Source of the DNA: Pelagicoccus sp. SDUM812005
Lineage (GTDB): Bacteria > Verrucomicrobiota > Verrucomicrobiia > Opitutales > Opitutaceae
Direction: 5' to 3'
Assembly (NCBI RefSeq): GCF_031127875.1
Contig: NZ_JARXIA010000031.1
Location: 1 to 48,147, forward strand
Length of the DNA stretch: 48,147 nucleotides
Part shown: piece by piece, positions 1,975 through 29,560 of the stretch
How the letters are laid out: every line of letters starts with the position of its first letter
Position numbering within the stretch: the stretch's first letter is position 1
Program-made: the position numbers and the translations under genes
The notes under the pieces: generated by a model
What the model saw: only the letters and a program-made list of their open reading frames with translations
Database searches by the model: none
What the model was told of the DNA's origin: nothing

Positions 1975-2008
1975 TGCCCACGAAGGACACGAAGGTTCAC
2001 TAAGTGGG
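1975..2008. repeat. Interspersed repeat, family D (CACGAAGG phrase), copy 1
   Basis: A run of near-repeats of CACGAAGGA with a period of 9-10 bases, introduced by TGCCCA. Related copies lie at 21782, 26389 (inside dnaE2) and 27194. Confidence 0.75.
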
Positions 2009-2063
2009 TTTGCTTGTTCTTTTGTTTAATTGTGAGAGGGGCGGAGATTGGGGGGTGGGGAAA

Positions 2064-2090
2064 TCGCGTGACTAGCACGCTCCCACGAAA
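2064..2090. repeat. Interspersed repeat, family C, internally deleted copy
   Basis: ATCGCGTGACT joined to AGCACGCTCCCACGAAAG. Both parts match the ends of the longer family C copy inside dnaE2 (24166-24230), with about 35 central bases missing. Confidence 0.65.
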
Positions 2091-2188
2091 GAACAGTTTG
2101 ATCGCGGCACAAGGCGACTTCCCGCAATGAAGGTTGCTCGGGATTTCGGGATTGGAATCTTGGGTGAGTTGGGTGAGTTTGTGGAGCT

Positions 2189-2665
2189 ATGATCGTAGAC
2201 CACATCGACAATTGGAATCGGTACTCGCTGGGCGAGGCTTGGGAAAAGGCCTTTGGCTTTTTGGAATCTCTCTCTGCGGATGCGGAGGAGAAGGAGTATC
2301 CAATCGATGGGGACGCGATCTTTGCTCGCGTGATGAGCTACGCCACGGAGAAAGAATCGAAGCCGGGCAAGATCTTGGAGGCGCATCGCAAGTACGCCGA
2401 TATCCAGATGGCCATGATCGATTCGGAGCGGATCGGGGTGTACCCGACGCATTCGCTCGAAAGCAAGGGTCCGTATGCGGACGATCGCGACGTGGAGTTT
2501 TTTGAATACAAGGAGCCGGCTCAGCTGCAGCTGTCGATGTATCCGGGTACCTTTGCCTTGCTGCTGCCGCAGGACGCTCACATGCCGGGCTTGTTCACGG
2601 AAGCGGAGGGAGCGATGGTGAAAAAGGTGGTGGTGAAGGTGCTGCTGGAGCGCTTGAAGCTTTAG
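2189..2665 (+). CDS. YhcH/YjgK/YiaL family protein (DUF386)
   Basis: A 158-residue protein of the YhcH/YjgK/YiaL fold (cupin-like beta barrel). It starts with the family's typical MIVDHI and carries the expected conserved points: the EAHRKYADIQ segment near residues 83-92 and the PGTFALLLPQDAHMPGL segment near 119-135, whose histidines are the likely metal ligands. Members act on sugars, for example E. coli NanQ as an N-acetylneuraminate anomerase and others attached to beta-galactosidases. No sugar-catabolic genes adjoin it here, so the substrate is unknown. It is monocistronic, between two repeat-bearing spacers. Family assignment is confident, substrate is not. Confidence 0.9.
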   Translation: MIVDHIDNWNRYSLGEAWEKAFGFLESLSADAEEKEYPIDGDAIFARVMSYATEKESKPGKILEAHRKYADIQMAMIDSERIGVYPTHSLESKGPYADDRDVEFFEYKEPAQLQLSMYPGTFALLLPQDAHMPGLFTEAEGAMVKKVVVKVLLERLKL

Positions 2666-2702
2666 TGGCGATGCCTTGGCGGGGGGCGCCTGGCGGGCGT
2701 TT

Positions 2703-2797
2703 GATCCTGCAACGCGGTCGCGGGCTTCCGCCTACGCTGAAGCTCCTTCCTTCGCTTTTCGCCAAGGCTTCGGCGGACGGGGGAGCTCCGCGCTACG
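2703..2797. repeat. Interspersed repeat, family B (GATCCTGCAACGCGGTCG ... GCGCTACG), longest copy
   Basis: Shares GATCCTGCA-CG-GGTCGCGGGCTTCC, TTCGCCAAGGCTTCGGCGGA and the closing GCTACG with the copy at 27353-27414. Shorter forms lie at 22080, 28243 and 29525. It contains an internal duplication-like stretch (GCTGAAGCTCC and GGAGCTCCGCGC). Confidence 0.75.
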
Positions 2798-2847
2798 TTT
2801 TAGAGCGTTTTTCGTTTAGTTAGTCGTACTGTGTGATGAGGGAGACG

Positions 2848-2873
2848 CGGCGTGCCCGGCGGTCCCGCCCTAC
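2848..2873. repeat. GC-rich REP-like element, family G, copy 1
   Basis: GGCGTGCCCGGCGGTCCCGC ending CCTACC, with hairpin potential. A similar element ending CCCACCCTAC lies at 31406-31430. Confidence 0.4.
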
Positions 2874-2902
2874 CTTATGCGAATGATCAAACGAAAAATT
2901 CT

Positions 2903-20960: not shown

Positions 20961-21776
20961 ATGGCGGAAGCGGGCGAAGTGATTTTTTTTGAGGGGCAAA
21001 TTATTGGGGATGAGGAGCCTAGGAATTTGGCGGATTCGGGGGCGTTGGCGGGCGTTGACGCGGGCCCTGGGATGCAGTGGAATGATGGCATGGCGACCGC
21101 TCGTGCAGATGTGGAGTCGGCCAGTCTGGAGGAAGCCTTTGATGGGCTGGGAGTTGAGCGCGTGGCGCCGGCTGAATCGGAAACTCTAGGGACTGGTGTC
21201 GACTCGTTGGACGAAGCCCTGGATGGGGGCTTGCGCTCGGGGCTGCTCACGGAGCTGGCGGAGAGCGGGGCGAGTTCGGGCGGTCAGGTGCTGCTGTTGC
21301 ACTTGCTGGCGGGGATGCGTCGGGAGCAGAAGTTTGCGGCTTTGGTGGACGGGGCGGACGGCTTCGACCCGGAGTCGGCGCCGAGGGAGCTGCTGGAGCA
21401 CTTGCTGTGGGCGCGTTGCCGCTCGGCGGGGGAGGCCATGAAGGTGGCGGACGCGTTGCTGCGGGACGAGAATTTGGGCATGGTCTTGGTGGATGTGCGG
21501 GGCTGCGGGGAGCGGGAGTTGCGTGGAGTGAAGGCGGCGGACTGGTATCGGCTGCAGCGTTTGGCGGAGCGCTCGGGGGCTTTCGTGTGCGTGTTTACGC
21601 CGCGTCCTTTTATTCCGAGCGCCCAGGTGCGGGTGCGGCTGCAAGGGCGAATGAGTATTGAAAATATGGATATGAGCGTGAGCGAGCTGGGCGGTGGCCT
21701 GGAGTTCGAGGTGTTGAGGAAGCGTGTGCGTGAGCGCGAGGGCTTTGCCCAGCTGGTGAGGAGAGCGGTGGGGTGA
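20961..21776 (+). CDS. imuA: ImuA-like RecA-fold protein of the mutagenesis cassette
   Basis: A 271-residue protein. After a variable N-terminal 75 residues (Ala/Gly/Asp-rich) it shows the ImuA/SulA-like RecA-fold core: TLGTGVDSLDEALDGGLRSG near 75-95, LLTELAESGASSGGQVLLLHLLAGM, a VLVDVRG strand, LQRLAERSGAFVCVFTPRPFIPSAQVRVRLQ and a C-terminal VRERE. The P-loop is degenerate (ESGASSGGQ, no GKT/S), as usual for ImuA, which is thought to help recruit the ImuB-DnaE2 polymerase pair to damaged DNA. imuB and dnaE2 follow in the same direction. The start has GGGGGGAG immediately upstream. Expression is probably SOS-linked, as known for the cassette. Confidence 0.87.
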   Translation: MAEAGEVIFFEGQIIGDEEPRNLADSGALAGVDAGPGMQWNDGMATARADVESASLEEAFDGLGVERVAPAESETLGTGVDSLDEALDGGLRSGLLTELAESGASSGGQVLLLHLLAGMRREQKFAALVDGADGFDPESAPRELLEHLLWARCRSAGEAMKVADALLRDENLGMVLVDVRGCGERELRGVKAADWYRLQRLAERSGAFVCVFTPRPFIPSAQVRVRLQGRMSIENMDMSVSELGGGLEFEVLRKRVREREGFAQLVRRAVG

Positions 21777-21986: not shown

Positions 21987-23579
21987 ATGTTCGCGGTGTT
22001 GCAAATTCCTAGGCTGGCGCTGCAGGCGGTTTTGAGAGGGGATGTTGGCGGCGACCTTCGAGAGGATCGGGTTGAGGGGACGCGGGCTGAAGCTCCGCGC
22101 TACGGGGATCGGCTTGAGGGGCATTGCGGCGTGGCGCGAGCGCCAGCCCTACTGGTGGTAGTGGATGCGGAGGCGCGCAAGCCGGTGGTGCTGGAGATGA
22201 CCGAGGGGGCGGAGCGGGAGGGCGTGCATGCAGGGCTGTCGGTACCGCAGGCTTTGGCGCGTTGTCCGGGGCTGGTGGTGAGGCATCGCTCGCCGCAGGC
22301 GGAGGCGTCGCTGGAGGAGTTGTTGTTCGCCTTGGCCTATTCGCTGTCGCCGCGGGTGGAGCGGGAGGGCACGGGCGAGGTGCTGGTGGATTTGCGGGGG
22401 GCGAAGCTGGAGGAGTCGCTGCAGCGTTGCGAGCGGATCGTGGCGGAGCTGGCGGGACTGAGTGTGGGCGTGGGCGTCGGCGTGGCGGAGAGCTGCGTGG
22501 TGGCGGGGCTGGCGGCGAGAACGGTGTCTGAGACGGGAGGGGGAGTGTTGCTGGTGGGCTCTGCTTCTTGGCAGGGGGCTGCATGCGTTCGAAGTGTGGG
22601 CTTGGAAGCGTTCATGGATGAGATGCCGATTGGGAATGTCGGGGGCTCGGATCGCTTGTTGGATGTGTTGGGAAAGTGGGGGGTGCGGACGGTGTCGGCT
22701 TTTGCGAAGCTGAGGCGCTCGGCGGTGGGGGCGCGGCTGGGCGTGGAGGGTTTGACGCTTTGGGATCGGGTGACGGGGCGCGAGCAGCGGGTAGTGGCGT
22801 TGGCGGAGCTGCCGGCGGAGTTTGAGGAGTCTTGGGAATTTGAATACGACGTGGATTCGGTGGATCCGTTGTTGTTCTTGTTGAGGCGTTTCTTGGATAC
22901 CTTGTGCGTGAGGATGCGGATGGCGCACAAGGTGGCGGCCTTTGCTCGGGTGGATTTGGGCTTGGCGTATGGGGAGCCGATCGTGGTGGAGCAGAAGCTG
23001 CCGGAGCCGACGGCGGATGGTGCGGCTTTGTTTTCGCTTTTGGCGTCGCGGCTGGAGGCGGTGGAAACGGATTCGCCGGTGGCGCGGATGGCCTTGTATT
23101 TGGAGGTGGTGGACTTCAAGCAGCGTCAGCTGGGCTTGTTCGAGAGCAGCTTGAAGAATCCGTATCGCTTTACCCAGACTTTGTCGCGGGTGGCGGGCAT
23201 CGTAGGGGAGGACCGGGTGGGGCGTCCGGCGCTGGAGGAGGAGGGGCGTCCGGATGGAGTGCGGCTGGAACCGCTGCCGGCCTCGGTGCCGCCGGTGGGG
23301 GAGCTGGATTTGGGGCGGATGTTCGGTCTGCCGCTAAGGCGGTATCGGCCGGGGCTGAGGGCGTCGGTGGAGTTTCAGGGGCGTCAGCCGATCTGGATAC
23401 AATGCGAAAAGGTGTCGGGCTTTGTGAAGGCGGCGCGGGGGCCATGGCTGCACTCCGGGCATTGGTGGGAAGAGGCGGGCAGTTGGAATCGCGTGGAGTG
23501 GGACGTGGAACTGAACAAGGGAGGCGTGTATCGGATTTGTAAGGACGAACAGGGATGGAGCGTGGATGGGGAGTATTGA
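21987..23579 (+). CDS. imuB: ImuB-like Y-family polymerase homologue, with a repeat-encoded insertion
   Basis: A 530-residue Y-family-like protein that bridges the beta clamp and DnaE2 in translesion synthesis. It opens MFAVLQIPRLALQAVL and continues, after an unusual stretch, with VVDAEARKPVVLEM, LSVPQALARCPGLVVRHRS, AYSLSPRVEREGTGEVLVDLRG (the catalytic D-E of active polymerases is absent, normal for ImuB), the helix-hairpin segment LDVLGKWGVRTVSAFAKL, and the C-terminal GVYRICKD-type end. Residues about 23-55 (DNA 22060-22152) are made of interspersed repeats found elsewhere in non-coding DNA and are absent from usual family members. A good GGAGG precedes the ATG. It sits between imuA and dnaE2. 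Confidence 0.92.
   Translation: MFAVLQIPRLALQAVLRGDVGGDLREDRVEGTRAEAPRYGDRLEGHCGVARAPALLVVVDAEARKPVVLEMTEGAEREGVHAGLSVPQALARCPGLVVRHRSPQAEASLEELLFALAYSLSPRVEREGTGEVLVDLRGAKLEESLQRCERIVAELAGLSVGVGVGVAESCVVAGLAARTVSETGGGVLLVGSASWQGAACVRSVGLEAFMDEMPIGNVGGSDRLLDVLGKWGVRTVSAFAKLRRSAVGARLGVEGLTLWDRVTGREQRVVALAELPAEFEESWEFEYDVDSVDPLLFLLRRFLDTLCVRMRMAHKVAAFARVDLGLAYGEPIVVEQKLPEPTADGAALFSLLASRLEAVETDSPVARMALYLEVVDFKQRQLGLFESSLKNPYRFTQTLSRVAGIVGEDRVGRPALEEEGRPDGVRLEPLPASVPPVGELDLGRMFGLPLRRYRPGLRASVEFQGRQPIWIQCEKVSGFVKAARGPWLHSGHWWEEAGSWNRVEWDVELNKGGVYRICKDEQGWSVDGEY
22060..22152. repeat. Families B and A repeats inserted in frame inside imuB
   Basis: Contains GATCGGGTTG, then GCGGGCTGAAGCTCCGCGCT (family B, 22083-22102) and GCGGCGTGGCGCGAGCGCCA with GCCCTAC (family A, 22126-22152). 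The same sequences recur at 27294, 28187, 28243 and 29485 outside genes. Translated as about 30 extra residues. Confidence 0.8.
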
Positions 23580-23595
23580 GGCTGTGTTGTTTCTT

Positions 23596-23632
23596 GCCCG
23601 CAGATGGACGCAGATGGACGCAGATGATTTGG
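23596..23632. repeat. Interspersed repeat, family E-like (CAGATGGACG tandem)
   Basis: CAGATGGACG occurs twice in tandem and is followed by CAGATGATTTGG. It begins 16 bases after the imuB stop. A short relative (GATGGACGCAGATGG) is at 28140-28168. Confidence 0.65.
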
Positions 23633-23663
23633 AGAGGATGAAGGATTGGATGGGTAATGTTGT

Positions 23664-23731
23664 TTTAACCGCAGGAGGCGCAGAAGTCACAAAGGGGGGG
23701 CTGCTTGTTTTGTGCTTTGGGTTTCTTTGTT
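23664..23731. repeat. Interspersed repeat, family E, long palindromic copy b
   Basis: TTTAACCGCAGGAGGCGCAG, AAGTCACAAAGG, then the right arm TGCTTGTTTTGTGCTTTGGG. Same order of parts and size as the copy at 21891-21961, so the imuB gene is bracketed by two copies. Confidence 0.65.
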
Positions 23732-23758
23732 TGTCGGAGTTTTGCATCTGGCTCCGTG

Positions 23759-23781
23759 TTCGCGAGCAAGGTCGCTCCTAC
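23759..23781. repeat. REP-like element immediately before the dnaE2 start
   Basis: TTCGCGAGCAAGGTCGCTCC followed by TAC, with a small stem GCGA/TCGC. It ends 5 bases before the dnaE2 ATG, where a Shine-Dalgarno would be expected. It resembles the REP sequences of pseudomonads. Confidence 0.6.
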
Positions 23782-23786
23782 CTGCT

Positions 23787-26700
23787 ATGAGTGAGGGGTA
23801 TGTGGAGTTGCATGGGCGGTCGGCGTTTTCGTTTTTGAGGGGGGCGTCGCAGCCGGACGAATTGGCGGAGGCTTGCGCGGATCGGGGCGTGGGGGCGATG
23901 GCTCTTTGCGATCGGGGCGGAGTTTATGGTTCGGCGCGCTTTCATGCGGCGTGCCGCGAGCTGGGCGTGAAGGGGATAGTGGGCTGCGAGCTTCCGATGG
24001 CGGATGGCACGGCTTTGCCGGTCATCGTTAAGTCGCGGGTGGGGTATCAGAATCTTTGTCGTTTGTTGACGGATACACATTTGGGCGATCTGGATGATCG
24101 GGTTGGTGCGGCGTGGCGCGAGCACCAGCCCTACAGGGATGGGCTTATTGAGGATCGGGTTGGGGGATCGCGTGACTCCAGCCGCCGCTCTTCGAGCTAT
24201 GGCGGACTTGCGAAGCACGCTCCCACAAAAGGCTTGAAGAAGGGGGAGGGGCGTGTGGCTTGGGAGGACTTGGCCGGACGAGTCGAGGGACTGTTGGCTT
24301 TGACGGGGGACGAGGAAGGGGTGTTGCGTCCGTATTGGGAACGTGGAGACAGGGCAGGGATGTGGGAGCGAGTGACGGAGCTAAAGGGGCTGTTTGGGTC
24401 GGGGAACGTTTTCGTGGAGCTGCAGCGGCGGCATGAGCGGGGCGAGGATCGGCTAGTGGCGGGCTTGCGGGACCTGGCGGCGGCGGAGGGGGTGTCGGTG
24501 GTGGCCACGAACGGAGTGAGCTATGCGCGGCCGCAGGGACGGGCTTTGATGGATGTGTTTACCTGCTTGCGGGAGAAGGTGACCTTGGATGGGGCGGGGG
24601 GCTTGTTGAGTCGGAATGGCCAGCGTTTCGTGAAGGTGCCGGAGGCGATGCGGCATTTGTTTCGGGATATTCCGGAGGCTTTGGACAATACGTTGCGGAT
24701 TGCGGAGCGGGTGGAGTTTGGCTTGGAGAACTTGGGTTACGAGTTTCCGAGCTATGACGTGCCGCGTGGTGAGTCGATGGATACGTTTTTGAGAAAGGTG
24801 GTTTGGGAGGGAGCCCGGAAGCGGTACCGCGGGGAGCCGAACGAGAAGACGCGGCGGCAGATGGAGCATGAGCTGGCGGTGATCGCGAAGCTGGGCTTTT
24901 CGGGCTACTTTTTGATCGTTTGGGATTTGGTGAACTTTTGTCGGGAGCAGGGGATCATGGCTCAGGGGCGGGGCAGCGCGGCGAATAGCGTGGTGTGCTT
25001 TTGTTTGGAGATCACGCCGGTGGATCCGGTGGGGGCGGGCTTGTTGTTCGAGCGGTTTTTGAACGAGGAGCGGCGGAGCTGGCCGGATATCGATATCGAC
25101 TTGCCGAGCGGGGAGCGGCGGGAGCGGGTGATCCAGGAGGTGTATCGTCGCTACGGGCGGCATGGGGCGGCCATGACGGCGAACGTGATCACGTATCGGC
25201 GCAAGAGCGCGGCCCGGGAGGTGGGGAAGGTGCTGGGCTTCGAGGAGGAGTTCTTGGGGCGCTTTTCGTCGCTGTTTGGCAGCCATAACTCTGCGCATGG
25301 GGTGGACTTCGAGGAGCAGTTGGAGAAGTCGGGTATCGAGAAGGAGCATCCGCGGGCTCGGGCTTTGGCGAAGTTGAGCTCCCAGGTATTGGGCTTGCCG
25401 CGGCATTTGGGGCAGCATTCGGGGGGCATGGTTATTTGTCAGGGAGCGTTGGATACGGTGGTGCCGCTGGAGCCGGCGTCGATGCCGGGGAGGTCGGTGT
25501 GCCAGTGGGACAAGAACGATTGCGAGGATTTGGGGATCGTGAAGGTGGACTTGCTGGGACTGGGGATGATGGCGGTGTTGCAGGACACGATCGAGACCTT
25601 GAATCGGAAGGGCGTGGATATCGATATGGCTCGTATCCCGAAGGATGATACGGCGACCTTTGAGATGATGCAGCGGGCGGATACGGTGGGGGTCTTCCAA
25701 ATCGAGAGTCGGGCCCAGATCGCGACCCTACCGCGCATGAAGCCGAAATGCTTTTATGACGTGGTGGTGGAGGTGGGGATCATTCGCCCGGGGCCGATCC
25801 AGGGGAAGATGGTGCATCCTTATTTGGAGCGGCGGGAGGATCCGAGCAAGATCGAGTACATCGACGAGCGTTTGGTGGAGGTGCTGGAGCGGACGCTGGG
25901 GGTGGCGCTTTTTCAGGAGCAGATCTTGAAGGTGGCGATGGTGATGGCGGGCTTCAGCGGGGCGGAGGCGGAGGAGCTGAGGCGGGCGGTGAGCACCTTT
26001 AGCACGAACGAGAAGCGGATGAACAAGGTGCTGGGGAAGCTGGTGAAGGCGATGCGGGATCGAGGCGTTGAGGAGCATAAGGTGAAGAGCGTGGTGCAAT
26101 CGGTGTCGAGCTTCGCTCACTATGGGTTTCCGGAGAGCCATGCGATTTCGTTCGGTCTGCTCGCTTACGTGAGCACGTATTTGAAGTGTCACTACGCGGA
26201 GGAGTTTTATGTGGGGCTGCTGAATAATCAGCCGATGGGTTTCTATGCTCCGGCGACCTTGATCCAGGACGCGAAGCGGCGGGGGATTCGGGTGAGGGCG
26301 GTTTGCGTGATGGAGTCGCGCTGGGAGTGTGTTGCCGCCGCTGGTGCGGCGAAGGGTGAAATTGGAAGAGTGAAGAGTGAAGGGCTGAGTGCCCACGAAG
26401 GACACGAAGATTCACGAAGGGGAGATGATAGGGATCGGGTTGGGGTGTCTGCTGGGACGGCGGACGCTACCGGTCTAGGGGAGATTCGCTTGGGGCTGGT
26501 GATGGTGAAGGGGCTTTCGCGGGAAAAGGGGAAGGCGTTGGTGGCGGAGCGAGACAAGCGGCCGTTTCGCTCGCTGAAGGATTTTCGCTTTCGGACGAAG
26601 TTCAATAAGGAGGAGTTGCGGCAGCTGGCTTCGATCGGGGCCTTGAATTGCTTTTGCGGGGATCGGCGCAAGGCGTTGTGGGAGGTTGAGTCGTTGTTGG

Positions 26701-27176
26701 ACGAGGATGACTTGTTCGCGTTCGTGGAGGAACCGGAGGATGAGCTGAGCCCGCTGGAGGTGATGACGCATCTGGAGCGTTTGCAGGCTGACTACGCGGG
26801 GGTGGGCGTGACGGTGGGCAAGCATCCGATGGCGTCGCTGCGCAGCGAGTTGGCCGGCGTGTGGCGCGCTTGCGATTTGGATACGACCCCGAATGGAAGT
26901 CGGGTGAAGGTGGCGGGGCAGGTGATTTGCCGTCAGCGGCCGGGCACGGCGAAGGGCTTCGTGTTTATCTCGATGGAGGACGAAACGGGCATTTCGAACT
27001 CGATCGTGTTGCCGCAGCTTTTCGAGAAGTATCGCCTGACGATTACGCAGGAGAAGTTTTTAGTGATCTCGGGCGCGCTGCAGCGACACAAGGGGGTGAC
27101 GCATGTGAAGGCGGATCGGATCGAGGCCTTGGTGGCCGGGGACACTCCGGCGGCGCGGAGCTATGATTTTCACTAG
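23787..27176 (+). CDS. dnaE2: Error-prone DNA polymerase DnaE2 (ImuC) with two repeat-encoded insertions
   Basis: A C-family polymerase of 1129 residues from the ATG at 23787. The frame is open further upstream, but MSEGYVELHGRSAFSFLRGA is the normal start. The PHP domain begins there; the catalytic acidic triad region is WPDIDIDLPSG, followed by RRERVIQEVYRRYG; further landmarks are HLGQHSGGMVI, VDLLGLGMM, FQIESRAQ, FSGAEAEELRRA and a C-terminal OB domain ending ARSYDFH. It extends primers across lesions with ImuB. Two stretches, residues about 103-149 and 855-894, break otherwise familiar sequence and are encoded by interspersed repeats, making the protein longer than usual. Codon use is GC-rich. 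The start is preceded by a REP-like element. Confidence 0.94.
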   Translation: MSEGYVELHGRSAFSFLRGASQPDELAEACADRGVGAMALCDRGGVYGSARFHAACRELGVKGIVGCELPMADGTALPVIVKSRVGYQNLCRLLTDTHLGDLDDRVGAAWREHQPYRDGLIEDRVGGSRDSSRRSSSYGGLAKHAPTKGLKKGEGRVAWEDLAGRVEGLLALTGDEEGVLRPYWERGDRAGMWERVTELKGLFGSGNVFVELQRRHERGEDRLVAGLRDLAAAEGVSVVATNGVSYARPQGRALMDVFTCLREKVTLDGAGGLLSRNGQRFVKVPEAMRHLFRDIPEALDNTLRIAERVEFGLENLGYEFPSYDVPRGESMDTFLRKVVWEGARKRYRGEPNEKTRRQMEHELAVIAKLGFSGYFLIVWDLVNFCREQGIMAQGRGSAANSVVCFCLEITPVDPVGAGLLFERFLNEERRSWPDIDIDLPSGERRERVIQEVYRRYGRHGAAMTANVITYRRKSAAREVGKVLGFEEEFLGRFSSLFGSHNSAHGVDFEEQLEKSGIEKEHPRARALAKLSSQVLGLPRHLGQHSGGMVICQGALDTVVPLEPASMPGRSVCQWDKNDCEDLGIVKVDLLGLGMMAVLQDTIETLNRKGVDIDMARIPKDDTATFEMMQRADTVGVFQIESRAQIATLPRMKPKCFYDVVVEVGIIRPGPIQGKMVHPYLERREDPSKIEYIDERLVEVLERTLGVALFQEQILKVAMVMAGFSGAEAEELRRAVSTFSTNEKRMNKVLGKLVKAMRDRGVEEHKVKSVVQSVSSFAHYGFPESHAISFGLLAYVSTYLKCHYAEEFYVGLLNNQPMGFYAPATLIQDAKRRGIRVRAVCVMESRWECVAAAGAAKGEIGRVKSEGLSAHEGHEDSRRGDDRDRVGVSAGTADATGLGEIRLGLVMVKGLSREKGKALVAERDKRPFRSLKDFRFRTKFNKEELRQLASIGALNCFCGDRRKALWEVESLLDEDDLFAFVEEPEDELSPLEVMTHLERLQADYAGVGVTVGKHPMASLRSELAGVWRACDLDTTPNGSRVKVAGQVICRQRPGTAKGFVFISMEDETGISNSIVLPQLFEKYRLTITQEKFLVISGALQRHKGVTHVKADRIEALVAGDTPAARSYDFH
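24094..24232. repeat. Families A and C repeats inserted in frame in the dnaE2 PHP region
   Basis: Family A at 24105-24134 (GCGGCGTGGCGCGAGCACCA then GCCCTAC) is followed by family C at about 24150-24230. The 38 bases at 24186-24223 are identical to 28315-28352, which is non-coding. Translated as roughly 45 extra residues between LLTDTHLGDL and the KGEGRVAWEDL that normally follows closely. Confidence 0.85.
26352..26442. repeat. Families F and D repeats inserted in frame near the dnaE2 C-terminal third
   Basis: A GTGAA-rich phrase (GGGTGAAATTGGAAGAGTGA, then AGAGTGAAGG, family F) is followed by TGCCCACGAAGGACACGAAG (family D) and GGGATCGGGTTGG. The family D part is translated AHEGHEDSRR. It separates MESRWECVA from GEIRLGLVMVKGL. 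Confidence 0.8.
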
Positions 27177-27193: not shown

Positions 27194-27230
27194 GTGCCCA
27201 CGAAGGGCACGAAGGGAGCACGAAGTGTGG
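27194..27230. repeat. Interspersed repeat, family D, copy 4
   Basis: GTGCCCACGAAGGGCACGAA then GGGAGCACGAAGTGTGG; begins 17 bases after the dnaE2 stop. Confidence 0.75.
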
Positions 27231-27293
27231 CGTTCGGTTTTTTTGCCCTGCAGATTACTCAGATTGTTGGGTGGATCTGGGGGAGTAGGGAGA

Positions 27294-27332
27294 ACGCTGC
27301 AATGCGGCGTGGCGCGAGTGCCAGCCCTATGG
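27294..27332. repeat. Interspersed repeat, family A, non-coding copy
   Basis: TGCAATGCGGCGTGGCGCGA then GTGCCAGCCCTATGG. Non-coding counterpart of the copies inside imuB and dnaE2. Confidence 0.8.
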
Positions 27333-27352
27333 AATGGCTGGGTGATCCTGCA

Positions 27353-27414
27353 GCGTGGTCGCGGGCTTCCACCTTCGCCAAGGCTTCGGCGGACATGAAA
27401 GCTCAGCGCTACGG
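27353..27414. repeat. Interspersed repeat, family B, copy abutting the methyltransferase stop
   Basis: GATCCTGCAGCGTGGTCGCG, TTCGCCAAGGCTTCGGCGGA and AGCTCAGCGCTACG, ending 5 bases from the stop codon of the leftward gene at 27419. Closest relative is 2703-2797. Confidence 0.75.
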
Positions 27415-27418
27415 GGAC

Positions 27419-28090
27419 TTACTTGGTGGCTTGGTAGAGGACGTAGGCGGCTCGTTTGGCGCCTTCGTGGACTTTGGCGGGGATGGCTTTGACTTGGAAG
27501 CCGGCTTGCTTGAGGCGGAGGGCGAACTTTTCGTCGGGGCCGGCAGACCAGAAGATGGCGGAGCCGCCGGGCTTGAGCACGGACTTGATGGTGCGGACTC
27601 CGGATTTTGAATACAGGTTGGCATTGCCTTTTTGCACCATGGCGACGGGGCCGTTGTCGATGTCGAGCAGGATGCAGTCGTAGCTTTCGGGCTCGGCTTT
27701 GCGGAGGACGACGGTGGCGTCGGCGACTTGGAGCTGCACGCGGGGGTCGTCGATGCACTTGCCGTTGAGCTCTTGCAGGTGTTCGCGGTTCCAGTCGATG
27801 ACTTCGGGGGCGAGCTCGAGCACTTCGAGGGTGGCGTCGGGCCCGCAGTGGGCGAGGGCTTGCTGGAGGGTGAAGCCGAGGCCGAGGCCGCCGATGAGCA
27901 TGCGGCTGGGCTGGTCTTTGGGAAGGGATTCGCCGCCGAGCTTGCCGAGGAGCTTTTCTGAGGCGGAGGCCTTGGAGTGCATGAGCTCTTGGCCGCTGAA
28001 GTTGATGGAGTAGGCTCCGTCTTGCTCGTAGAGGGCGAGGATGCCTCCGGTGGCGGGATGGGTTTCGGCGAGTTTGTTGCGTGGCTTCAA
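27419..28090 (-). CDS. Spermidine synthase-like SAM-dependent methyltransferase
   Basis: A 223-residue Rossmann-fold protein of the spermine/spermidine synthase-like group. Glycine-rich motif I is LIGGLGLGF at residues 65-73, the acidic end of strand 2 is EVLELAPEVIDWNREHL near 89-105, and YDCILLDIDNGP near 137-148 is the motif with the catalytic-site Asp residues. It ends GFQVKAIPAKV with KRAAYVLYQ. It may transfer an aminopropyl or methyl group; no polyamine genes are nearby. The best start by comparison, MKPRNKLAE, uses a TTG at 28090 without clear Shine-Dalgarno, directly downstream of a repeat. Its stop is followed within 5 bases by a family B repeat. Confidence 0.8.
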   Translation of the reverse strand: MKPRNKLAETHPATGGILALYEQDGAYSINFSGQELMHSKASASEKLLGKLGGESLPKDQPSRMLIGGLGLGFTLQQALAHCGPDATLEVLELAPEVIDWNREHLQELNGKCIDDPRVQLQVADATVVLRKAEPESYDCILLDIDNGPVAMVQKGNANLYSKSGVRTIKSVLKPGGSAIFWSAGPDEKFALRLKQAGFQVKAIPAKVHEGAKRAAYVLYQATK

Positions 28091-28097
28091 GTGTTTT

Positions 28098-28168
28098 GGT
28101 TCCGGGTGCTGGGTTCTGGGCGCTGAGTTTCGGAACTTGGGATGGACGCAGATGGGGAGGGATTTGGC
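28098..28168. repeat. Mixed short repeats upstream of the methyltransferase start
   Basis: GGTTCCGGGTGCTGGGTTCT at 28098-28117 is a self-similar phrase (GGGT/GGTTCT), and GATGGACGCAGATGGGGAGG at 28141-28160 matches the family E-like tandem at 23596. Confidence 0.5.
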
Positions 28169-28186
28169 GAGGGTTTGTTTTTTGAG

Positions 28187-28223
28187 CCTGCAATGCGGCG
28201 TGGCGCGAGTGTTTAGCCCTACG
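28187..28223. repeat. Interspersed repeat, family A, non-coding copy
   Basis: CCTGCAATGCGGCGTGGCGC then GAGTGTTTAGCCCTACGG, with three changed bases in the middle relative to the 27294 copy. Confidence 0.75.
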
Positions 28224-28242
28224 GATCAAGGCTCGGTTTGGG

Positions 28243-28354
28243 ATCTTGCAATGCGGTCGCTGGCTGAAGCGCAGCGCTACGGGATCGGGTTGTGGGATAG
28301 CGTGGCCCAGCCGTCGCTCTTCGAGCTATGGCGGACTTGCGAAGCACGCTCCTA
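28243..28354. repeat. Families B and C repeats in series, non-coding copy
   Basis: GATCTTGCAATGCGGTCGCT then GGCTGAAGCGCAGCGCTACG (B) passes directly into GGGATCGGGTTGTGGGATAG and the C element; 28315-28352 is identical to 38 bases inside dnaE2. Ends 10 bases from the stop of the leftward oxidoreductase gene. Confidence 0.85.
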
Positions 28355-28363
28355 CGTCTCTGC

Positions 28364-29437
28364 TTAGAGGGTGACGGGTTTGCCGTCTTGGCGGGCGGAG
28401 GTGTAGATGGCTTCGATGAGGGCGATGGCGCGGCGGGATTCGGGGCCGTCGAGGGTGGGCTCGCGTCCCTCTGTAAGGGCCGCGGTGAATTCTTGGAAGT
28501 TACGCAGGTGCTGGCGGTAGTCGATGGAGCCGGGATCGGCCGCTCCGGCTCCGCCTTTGGGAGCGTTGGCTCCATATTTGGCGAGGATTTCTGCGTCTTC
28601 GGGGAGTTCTGTTTCGAAGTCCCAGACGGTGAGGGTTTCGTCGGTGAGGAAGATGGAACCGGTGGAGCCGCAGAGTTGGACTTGGGCGGGGTGTCCGGTT
28701 TTTGAATACGCGGTGGTGGTGCCTTCGATGGTGCCGAGGGCGCCGTTCTTGAACTTGAGGGTGGCGACGGCGAGGTCTTCGACTTCGATGCCTTGGTGGG
28801 TGGCGGTCTTCATGTAGGCGGAGACGGATTCGACGTCGCCGGCGAAATGGAGCAGCATGTCGATGGTGTGGATCGACTGGTTCATGAGGGCTCCGCCGCC
28901 GGAGAGGGACCAGATGCGGCGCCAGATGTCGGCGTCGTAGTACTCTTGGGTGCGGAACCACTTGATGTAGGCGGAGGCGAGGGTCAGCTGGCCGAGGCGT
29001 CCGGCGTCGACGGCTTTTTTGGTGGCTTCGACGGCGGGGGTGAAGCGGCGGGGGAAGATGCCGCAGATCTTGACGCCGTGCTTTTGGCAGGCGGCGAGGG
29101 CGGCGTCGGTGCGGGCGACGGTGGCTTCGATGGGCTTCTCGCAGAGGATGTGCTTGCCGGCTGCGGCTGCGGCTTCGATGGGCTCGAGGTGGTAGCCGCT
29201 GGGGGTGGCGATGGCGACGATGTCGAGCTCGGGGTTGGCGAGGAAGTCGTCGTAGTTTGAATACGCGTCGCAGGGATGCTGGGTGGCGAAGGCGTCGGCC
29301 TTGTCTTGGGAGCGGCTGTAGCAGGCGACGAGTTTGGCGTCGGCCATGTCGGCGATGGCTTTGGCGTGGAACTGGGCGATCATGCCGAGTCCGACGATTC
29401 CTATTCCGTAGGGTTGGGATGCTTTTTCTTTAACCAC
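28364..29437 (-). CDS. Gfo/Idh/MocA-family oxidoreductase (cytoplasmic)
   Basis: A 357-residue NAD(P)-dependent sugar-type oxidoreductase without signal peptide. The Rossmann motif is GIVGLGMIAQFHAKAI from about residue 13. LVACYSRSQDKADAF follows, then IATPSGYHLEPIEAAAAAGKHILCEKPIEA with the canonical EKP lysine near residue 101. The C-terminal domain includes GGGALMNQSIHTIDMLLHFAGDVESV, with the active-site His. The apparent start is a GTG at 29437 that lies inside a family E repeat (TTAACCACAGA on the plus strand); no ATG is available until well into the Rossmann motif. The substrate, probably a polyol or sugar, is unknown. Confidence 0.9.
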   Translation of the reverse strand: MVKEKASQPYGIGIVGLGMIAQFHAKAIADMADAKLVACYSRSQDKADAFATQHPCDAYSNYDDFLANPELDIVAIATPSGYHLEPIEAAAAAGKHILCEKPIEATVARTDAALAACQKHGVKICGIFPRRFTPAVEATKKAVDAGRLGQLTLASAYIKWFRTQEYYDADIWRRIWSLSGGGALMNQSIHTIDMLLHFAGDVESVSAYMKTATHQGIEVEDLAVATLKFKNGALGTIEGTTTAYSKTGHPAQVQLCGSTGSIFLTDETLTVWDFETELPEDAEILAKYGANAPKGGAGAADPGSIDYRQHLRNFQEFTAALTEGREPTLDGPESRRAIALIEAIYTSARQDGKPVTL

Positions 29438-29460
29438 AGATTTCTCGGATGTTGAGGGAT
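29430..29460. repeat. Interspersed repeat, family E, overlapping the oxidoreductase start codon
   Basis: TTAACCACAGATTTCTCGGA then TGTTGAGGG. The complementary strand's GTGGTTAA provides the GTG start codon of the leftward gene. Confidence 0.6.
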
Positions 29461-29484
29461 GTTGGGTGATCGGGTTGTCGTTTG

Positions 29485-29518
29485 CTTGGCGCGGCGTGGC
29501 CCGAGGGCCAGCACTATG
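29485..29518. repeat. Interspersed repeat, family A, diverged copy
   Basis: TTGGCGCGGCGTGGCCCGAG then GGCCAGCACTATGG, clearly related to the 27294 copy. Confidence 0.65.
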
Positions 29519-29524
29519 GATCGG

Positions 29525-29560
29525 GCTGGCGCGGTCGCTGGCTAACGCTCAGCGCTACGG
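29525..29560. repeat. Interspersed repeat, family B, supplying the end of the Nramp-family gene
   Basis: GCTGGCGCGGTCGCTGGCTA then ACGCTCAGCGCTACGG. Read on the minus strand its last part encodes Arg-Ser-Ala-Glu-Arg and the TAG stop of the transporter gene. Confidence 0.7.

Follow-up and report, generated by a model that had tools for sequence, protein, structure and literature searches.

Interspersed repeats, mostly of the REP type, lie in frame in loops of ImuB and DnaE2 in Pelagicoccus

Introduction

Palindromic DNA is found in frame inside many proteins in the case of the Rickettsia palindromic elements (RPE), and cassettes of the ImuB-DnaE2 type are in general SOS-induced and non-essential. 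Here we describe interspersed repeats, most of them repetitive extragenic palindromes (REPs), that lie in frame in loops of the mutagenesis proteins ImuB and DnaE2 of Pelagicoccus sp. SDUM812005 (Verrucomicrobiota; Opitutaceae), in a stretch of 48,147 nucleotides (positions 1 to 48,147 of the forward strand of contig NZ_JARXIA010000031.1, assembly GCF_031127875.1) that we call the window. The likeness to RPE lies in the in-frame palindromic DNA inside proteins and is one of description rather than of compared sequences.

The GTAG/CGTC REPs of PMC3733652 provide the closest described system. In the part of that paper available to us, GTAG REPs are placed inside genes, many of them for replication or repair, with DnaE2 and both uvrA genes of Opitutus terrae named, and this verrucomicrobial species is given the most intragenic GTAG repeats. 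The same part holds that REP heads can supply the TAG stop of genes, that the REPs of Xanthomonas recB share roughly one site whereas the position differs in other repair genes, and that RPE hosts include a dnaE and a uvrB; in addition, mutator effects were proposed for REPs in repair genes. The original prediction for the window, which knew of no such repeats in a mutagenic polymerase, therefore fails in its claim to lack a precedent, as REPs in DnaE2 and UvrA had already been described there. ImuB has no occurrence in the text of PMC3733652. Both systems share in-frame GTAG REPs in repair genes, but here the same DnaE2, ImuB and UvrA loops have been refilled in sister species and unrelated repeats occupy the DnaE2 loops of other lineages, which differs from the available account of the earlier cases.

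Two further systems are related. According to the accessible text of PMC6006769, REPs lie with the frame unbroken inside RAYT (REP-associated tyrosine transposase, tnpAREP) genes of subclass 2.4, which is again a REP in coding sequence, although in that case the transposase's own gene is the host. In Pseudomonas fluorescens, the portion of PMC3116915 at hand describes REPINs (REP doublets forming hairpins) and RAYTs that share with our elements the short palindromes, the inverted pairs and the RAYT association, but nearly all of those repeats lie outside genes, with 14 16-mers that overlap genes, and singlets make up 18% of them, whereas singlets prevail here.

Results

Alignment with orthologues delimits three in-frame inserts on the plus strand. 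The first lies in imuB (21987..23579, plus strand; Pfam IMS 4.1e-11) at 22038..22154, residues 18-56, between ALQAVLR and VVVDAEARK. The other two lie in the dnaE2 frame (23712..27176, plus strand; Pfam DNA_pol3_alpha 2.5e-83), site 1 at 24084..24239 (residues 125-176 of the long frame, between LLTDTHL and KGEGRVAW) and site 2 at 26334..26480 (residues 875-923 of the long frame, between WECV and EIRLGL). The original prediction had been right in seeing repeats that keep the frame open, and too narrow in its bounds (22060-22152, 24094-24232 and 26352-26442). All repeats in these inserts are on the minus strand: REPs of families A (22078..22107) and B (22125..22152) in imuB, a B (24107..24134) and a C (24178..24226) at site 1, and repeat D (26391..26421) and element E (26439..26473) at site 2. 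Families A, B, E and H have a GTAG head and C a GTGG head, whereas D has neither and hence is not a REP. E is probably a REP, judging by its GTAG head and by its copies in sister species, two of which hold it at the same place (G003 and G005 of the seven congeners compared, G001-G007; the genome of the window is G000).

The repeats are dispersed through the genome, and their identity as repeats is established for A, B, C and D. By BLAST at E<=0.001 and counting the query itself, the A/B segment 22060-22152 has at least 47 places in the genome (40 of 123 first-look candidates scored), the B/C segment 24094-24232 at least 17 (40 of 46 scored) and the segment 26352-26442 has 10, the last owing its other own-genome copies to about 26389-26424. 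These further copies bear out the prediction of interspersed repeats, and the outcome that would have spoken against it, an absence of other copies, was not seen. The predicted 38 identical bases at 24186-24223 and 28315-28352 are exact, identity ending there on both sides. In 1.15 Mb of own sequence, a set in part selected for containing repeat matches, we counted 47 A, 28 B, 15 D, 10 F, 6 A2, 5 H, 3 C, 2 J, 1 I and 1 E.

That the loops might be ordinary fast-evolving linkers whose resemblance to repeats reflects chance or composition is very improbable. The varying loop length across the family and the stretches between repeats without a match elsewhere would suit it; against it, ten repeat queries at a threshold of >=30 bits gave 50 matches in 800 kb of the own contig C31 vs 0 in a Markov control of equal length (55 vs 1 at >=28 bits), the 38 bases recur identically in a downstream intergenic copy, and stretches of up to 30 bases of the G007 insert recur with 100% identity elsewhere in that genome and in G003. 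Thus, the control excludes chance for most families, and chance may account for the residues between repeats.

The encoded peptide is not what the copies have in common, as neither reading frame nor peptide is fixed across host copies: element B is read as CGVARAPALL in ImuB and as GAAWREHQPY in DnaE2. A fixed encoded peptide was likewise rejected for copies of I and of the H type, which occur in all three frames. Seven of the ten queries, D included, have no stops in any of the three frames opposite to the GTAG strand.

Within the genus, the same loops hold different families. DnaE2 site 1, with B and C in the window species, contains I together with H in G007 and together with J in G003; G001 has H there and G002, judged by eye, an I-like stretch. 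The site is empty in G004, G005 and G006 and short in the outgroups G015, G040, G023, G056 and G038, and two further outgroups (G010, G031) have a long, unrelated sequence there. Site 2, with D and E in the window species, contains J, I, B and H in G007 and I with B in G002; E is present there in G003 and, at 31.5 bits, in G005, and a weak D (29.5 bits) in G006. This loop is short in G004, and in G001 the repeat queries found no match. The ImuB loop has A and B in the window species, B in G002, F in G003 and I (29.5 bits) with H in G007, and a second ImuB loop has H in G002 and J in G007. These alignments indicate that loops were refilled with different families more than once within the genus. 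As predicted, most close relatives lack the segments or have others in their place, and the same segments were not seen in distant orthologues, but congeners do share B in ImuB (G002) and E in DnaE2 (G003, G005). As a side observation, the peptide RVKSEG at site 2 (window 26359-26383) resembles RTKSEE of loops in G004, in whose helicase and uvrA loops (L234, L162) RTKSEE and NSSLLTLNSS recur and, from the peptides, resemble two readings of one inverted repeat.

On the protein side, AlphaFold2 gives a predicted local distance difference test score (pLDDT) below 50 for residues 19-52 of ImuB and 124-179 and 879-921 of DnaE2, which is nearly the whole of the three inserts. The segments, which the original prediction assigned to surface loops, coincide with low-confidence loops of the models. 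The DnaE2 model is weak overall (mean pLDDT 64.6) and has other low stretches too, which limits the argument from this coincidence. Away from gaps, and with three congeners each, the ratio of nonsynonymous to synonymous substitution rates is 0.17-0.27 for imuB and 0.10-0.14 for dnaE2 (0.09-0.27 once the uvrA-like gene treated below is included), and the rest of ImuB and DnaE2 is under purifying selection.

The DnaE2 loops have also taken up repeats in other lineages. Among 80 named DnaE2 loci, site 1 measures 3-4 residues in 67 and site 2 measures 5-6 residues in 64; inserts of more than 12 residues occur at ten loci at site 1 and nine at site 2, with L269 in both sets. For 18 of these 19 long inserts (all but L305), which come from 17 genomes, we looked for further copies in the respective genome, 40 candidates per genome being scored. 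Among the matches listed, six have several further own-genome places: one at site 1 (L274, labelled Opitutia) and five at site 2 (L280, L290, L302 and L303, labelled as Acidobacteria groups, and the second insert of L269, labelled Verrucomicrobiia). The other twelve hardly recur, if at all, among the matches listed, with two short places for L304 and one or none for eleven. By eye, the six recurrent repeats differ from the GTAG families, and hence the two DnaE2 loops seem to have taken up repeats independently. We regard as distinctly doubtful a broader proposal, in which the two loops (after LLTDTHL in the PHP region, and at the WxC/xIRLGL turn) and partner loops would be cross-phylum landing pads for each genome's own short repeat, captured in frame repeatedly, so that mobile palindromes would remodel the mutagenesis machinery and may tune mutation supply.

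A third gene hosts such repeats. uvrA-long (G000:C42:184154-189982, L128) encodes a tandem UvrA-like protein of 1943 residues, several of whose linkers contain repeats in frame; the linkers of congener orthologues carry different repeats. G000 also encodes a shorter UvrA elsewhere, and in G006 uvrA-long (G006:C6:5397354-5403255) is split by a frame break, either genuine or derived from the assembly. Across eight species, matches of at least 30 bits number 19 in dnaE2 frames, 7 in imuB, 12 in uvrA-long and 1 in a helicase; as 2 of the 19 precede the probable dnaE2 start, 36 remain in imuB, dnaE2 and uvrA-long, in 84 kb, of which 4 are repeat D and 3 score below 32 bits.

In the samples, repeats inside other genes are rare. 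The background amounted to 2.0 Mb (800 kb of own contig C31, 800 kb of G007 C5 and C50, and 400 kb of G003 C101 and C112), in stretches picked by contig and not by gene, some of which were already known to contain repeats; matches on C31 were merged to 30 sites, each match on the other contigs was counted by itself, and D was included. According to a rough gene caller, the 93 sites divide into 80 intergenic, 12 across gene ends and 1 clearly internal, which agrees with the mostly extragenic position of GTAG REPs. The internal site is an H-type REP, in frame, in a DEAD_2/Helicase_C_2 helicase (G007:C5:356474, L154), a class that presumably has a role in DNA repair, and the length of its loop varies among eight orthologues. 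At 39 own-genome loci, around repeat matches and RAYT genes, 49 sites divide into 44 intergenic, 3 at gene ends and 2 in uvrA-long. Several REPs in G007 and G003 (e.g. G007:C50:167301, G003:C101:34972) overlap a gene end by a few bases, as if GTAG gave the TAG stop.

Because the gene caller put imuB on the wrong strand and shortened dnaE2, the census was rechecked with stop-to-stop frames and Pfam. Open stretches with at least 25 codons on either side enclose 41 of the 99 sampled matches; Pfam, run on 20 of the 41, gave a domain above cut-off in 6, with the repeat before the domain in all 6, a single TPR match below cut-off, and no domain in 13. Frames of at least 220 codons hold 16 of 64 matches at the 39 own loci, and 3 of these, all in uvrA-long, have 150 codons on both sides, the remaining 13 lying outside the Pfam scan. 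A second clear internal case was not found in the frames scanned, and since these were a part of all open frames, the count of internal sites is a lower bound. At a rate of 1 per 1.68 Mb of called coding sequence, the Poisson probability of 36 in 84 kb is 4e-89 (4e-64 at five times that rate), values that disregard shared ancestry, the rough caller and the post hoc choice of genes.

This concentration is what would be expected if selection kept REPs in mutagenesis and repair genes through altered activity or expression and mutator-like states, a speculation found in the part of PMC3733652 that we could draw on. Among the own-genome sites examined, repeats with at least 150 open codons on each side, or inserts supported by orthologues, were found just in imuB, dnaE2 and uvrA-long, the sole clear internal site of the samples is the helicase, and six genomes from other lineages have unrelated repeats in the same two DnaE2 loops. 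Nevertheless, the inserts share no peptide or frame, the families differ between sister species, G004, G005 and G006 do without a site 1 insert, and the proteins are under ordinary purifying selection, so that we consider this explanation quite improbable.

The orientation of the repeats follows a strand rule. Unpaired REPs have GTAG on the C-rich strand in 65 of 71 cases in five sampled stretches, and in 80 of 86 when the 15 of the window are included; six copies depart from the rule, namely two B on C31 plus four of H or I on G007 C5. Single copies on the other own contigs mostly conform as well, those on C28, C35, C48 and C107 being contrary (by eye, with skew from 5.8-40 kb). The binomial probability of 1.3e-17 is too small, because elements that share ancestry or neighbourhood are not independent. 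Composition was rejected as the cause, as families whose GTAG strand is G-rich also lie on the C-rich strand in 33 of 37 cases (C 3/3, F 5/5, H 7/10, I 9/10, J 9/9). An earlier hint of such a rule is the opposite orientation of REP tandem arrays on the two sides of the origin in P. fluorescens, as described in the available portion of PMC3116915. Neither lagging strand nor strand bias is mentioned in the part of PMC8266576 at our disposal, and in the largely non-subscription literature that was accessible we found no report of a strand rule for single REPs, or of REPs in ImuB.

This strong strand rule also favours the view that repair loci are hot spots of insertion, either through single-stranded DNA exposed in damage or transcription or through local hopping near REPs. 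The cassette lies within a local repeat cluster: the window has 18 repeat matches of at least 30 bits in one shared orientation, 14 of them within 22.0-29.6 kb, and by eye the 55 own-genome matches of CAACCCGATC form two dense clusters, at imuB-dnaE2 (6) and at uvrA-long (4). Yet the inserts are confined to a few loops rather than spread over the whole gene, a distribution that suggests filtering by what the protein tolerates, and the CAACCCGATC clusters of G001 are mostly outside open frames; targeted insertion thus appears unlikely. As a marker, CAACCCGATC, a putative REP tail or homing site, was dropped, since among the matches listed it also occurs in congeners outside open frames and, by chance, in N-P-I codons of GcpE.

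Of the five Y1_Tnp genes that the genome carries, two suggest a link to RAYTs. The gene on C85 lies between B-like REPs that face each other (29.5 and 35.3 bits), B being the family common to imuB and dnaE2, and the gene on C25 has F-like REPs around it (25.7-37.2 bits). By eye, the B stem beside the RAYT keeps its pairing through changes on both sides. GTAG REPs have an imperfect palindrome of 20-40 bp beside the head; compared with shuffles, folding of the hairpins is mixed, being good for A (z -2.43) and H (z -2.32), at z -1.45 for C, and without advantage for B and E. Inverted pairs (REPINs or bacterial interspersed mosaic elements) account for 24 of 95 non-D elements (12/35, 0/18, 8/27, 2/13 and 2/2 in the five stretches).

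The remaining features of the window are as follows. Upstream of imuB lies an imuA-like open reading frame (20961..21776, plus strand; Pfam RecA 5e-07), so that imuA-like, imuB and dnaE2 are consecutive by reading frames and Pfam. ImuB has QLGLF at residue 381, which we take to be a motif of the clamp-binding type. Orthologue alignment places the dnaE2 start probably at 23787, and a family H REP with a GTAG head (23760..23781, minus strand) would hence be just upstream of, and outside, the gene. Downstream of dnaE2, on the minus strand, follow D, B, a partial B, A2, C, B and A2 at 27196, 27303, 28194, 28253, 28307, 29491 and 29531 (27196..29560), the C at site 1 being 96% identical to 28307-28355; D, J, I and F at 1976..2875, minus strand, have the orientation of the other window repeats. 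Among the named records listed, in which very near ones are perhaps omitted, the closest to DnaE2 are metagenome-assembled genomes of Opitutales and Opitutaceae with at most 63% identity.

Discussion

Taken together, the best explanation, to which we give a probability of about 0.78, is that REPs, together with repeat D, were probably mobilised by RAYTs and retained in tolerant, in-frame loops of ImuB and DnaE2. REPs would have spread through the genome and its congeners by the action of RAYT-type Y1 transposases on single-stranded DNA, and copies that entered disordered loops of the two proteins in frame would be tolerated, given the scarcity of stop codons in the elements and the way in which the loops bulge from conserved folds. 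The same loops would then be refilled by different families while the remaining protein stays under purifying selection. The open frame, the empty or differently filled orthologous loops and the strand rule are observations; what we infer is the transposase step, retention through tolerance, and an unchanged protein function.

Several findings weigh against this explanation. Tolerance by itself does not obviously account for the prominence of repair genes, given all the genes that have flexible linkers. In most bacteria the leading strand is the G-rich one, and a simple IS608-like model has the GTAG strand insert into the lagging-strand template; if the leading strand is G-rich here, the GTAG polarity would be opposite to that expectation. 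Among the five Y1_Tnp genes of the genome, none has C or E beside it, and A has just a weak match (25.7 bits) 0.5 kb from a RAYT. Shuffled sequences fold at least as well as the hairpins of B (z 0.71) and E (z 0.91), and D does not fold. A second copy of E at >=30 bits was not found in the 1.15 Mb of own-genome sequence; in congeners, copies at this threshold are at G007:C5:49718 and G003:C101:6525. Finally, B in ImuB (window species and G002) and E in DnaE2 (window species, G003 and G005) look inherited, not newly inserted.

REPs in repair genes were already known, and what the present study adds is ImuB as a host, the refilling of loops, the repeats in DnaE2 of other lineages and the strand rule. 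A little-noticed pattern, which recurs at fixed loops, thus gains ImuB and a set of sister species, and because sister orthologues with filled and with empty loops exist, the old mutator speculation becomes testable. The prominence of repair genes may stem from preferential insertion, tolerance or selection, and the strand rule offers a concrete handle on REP movement.

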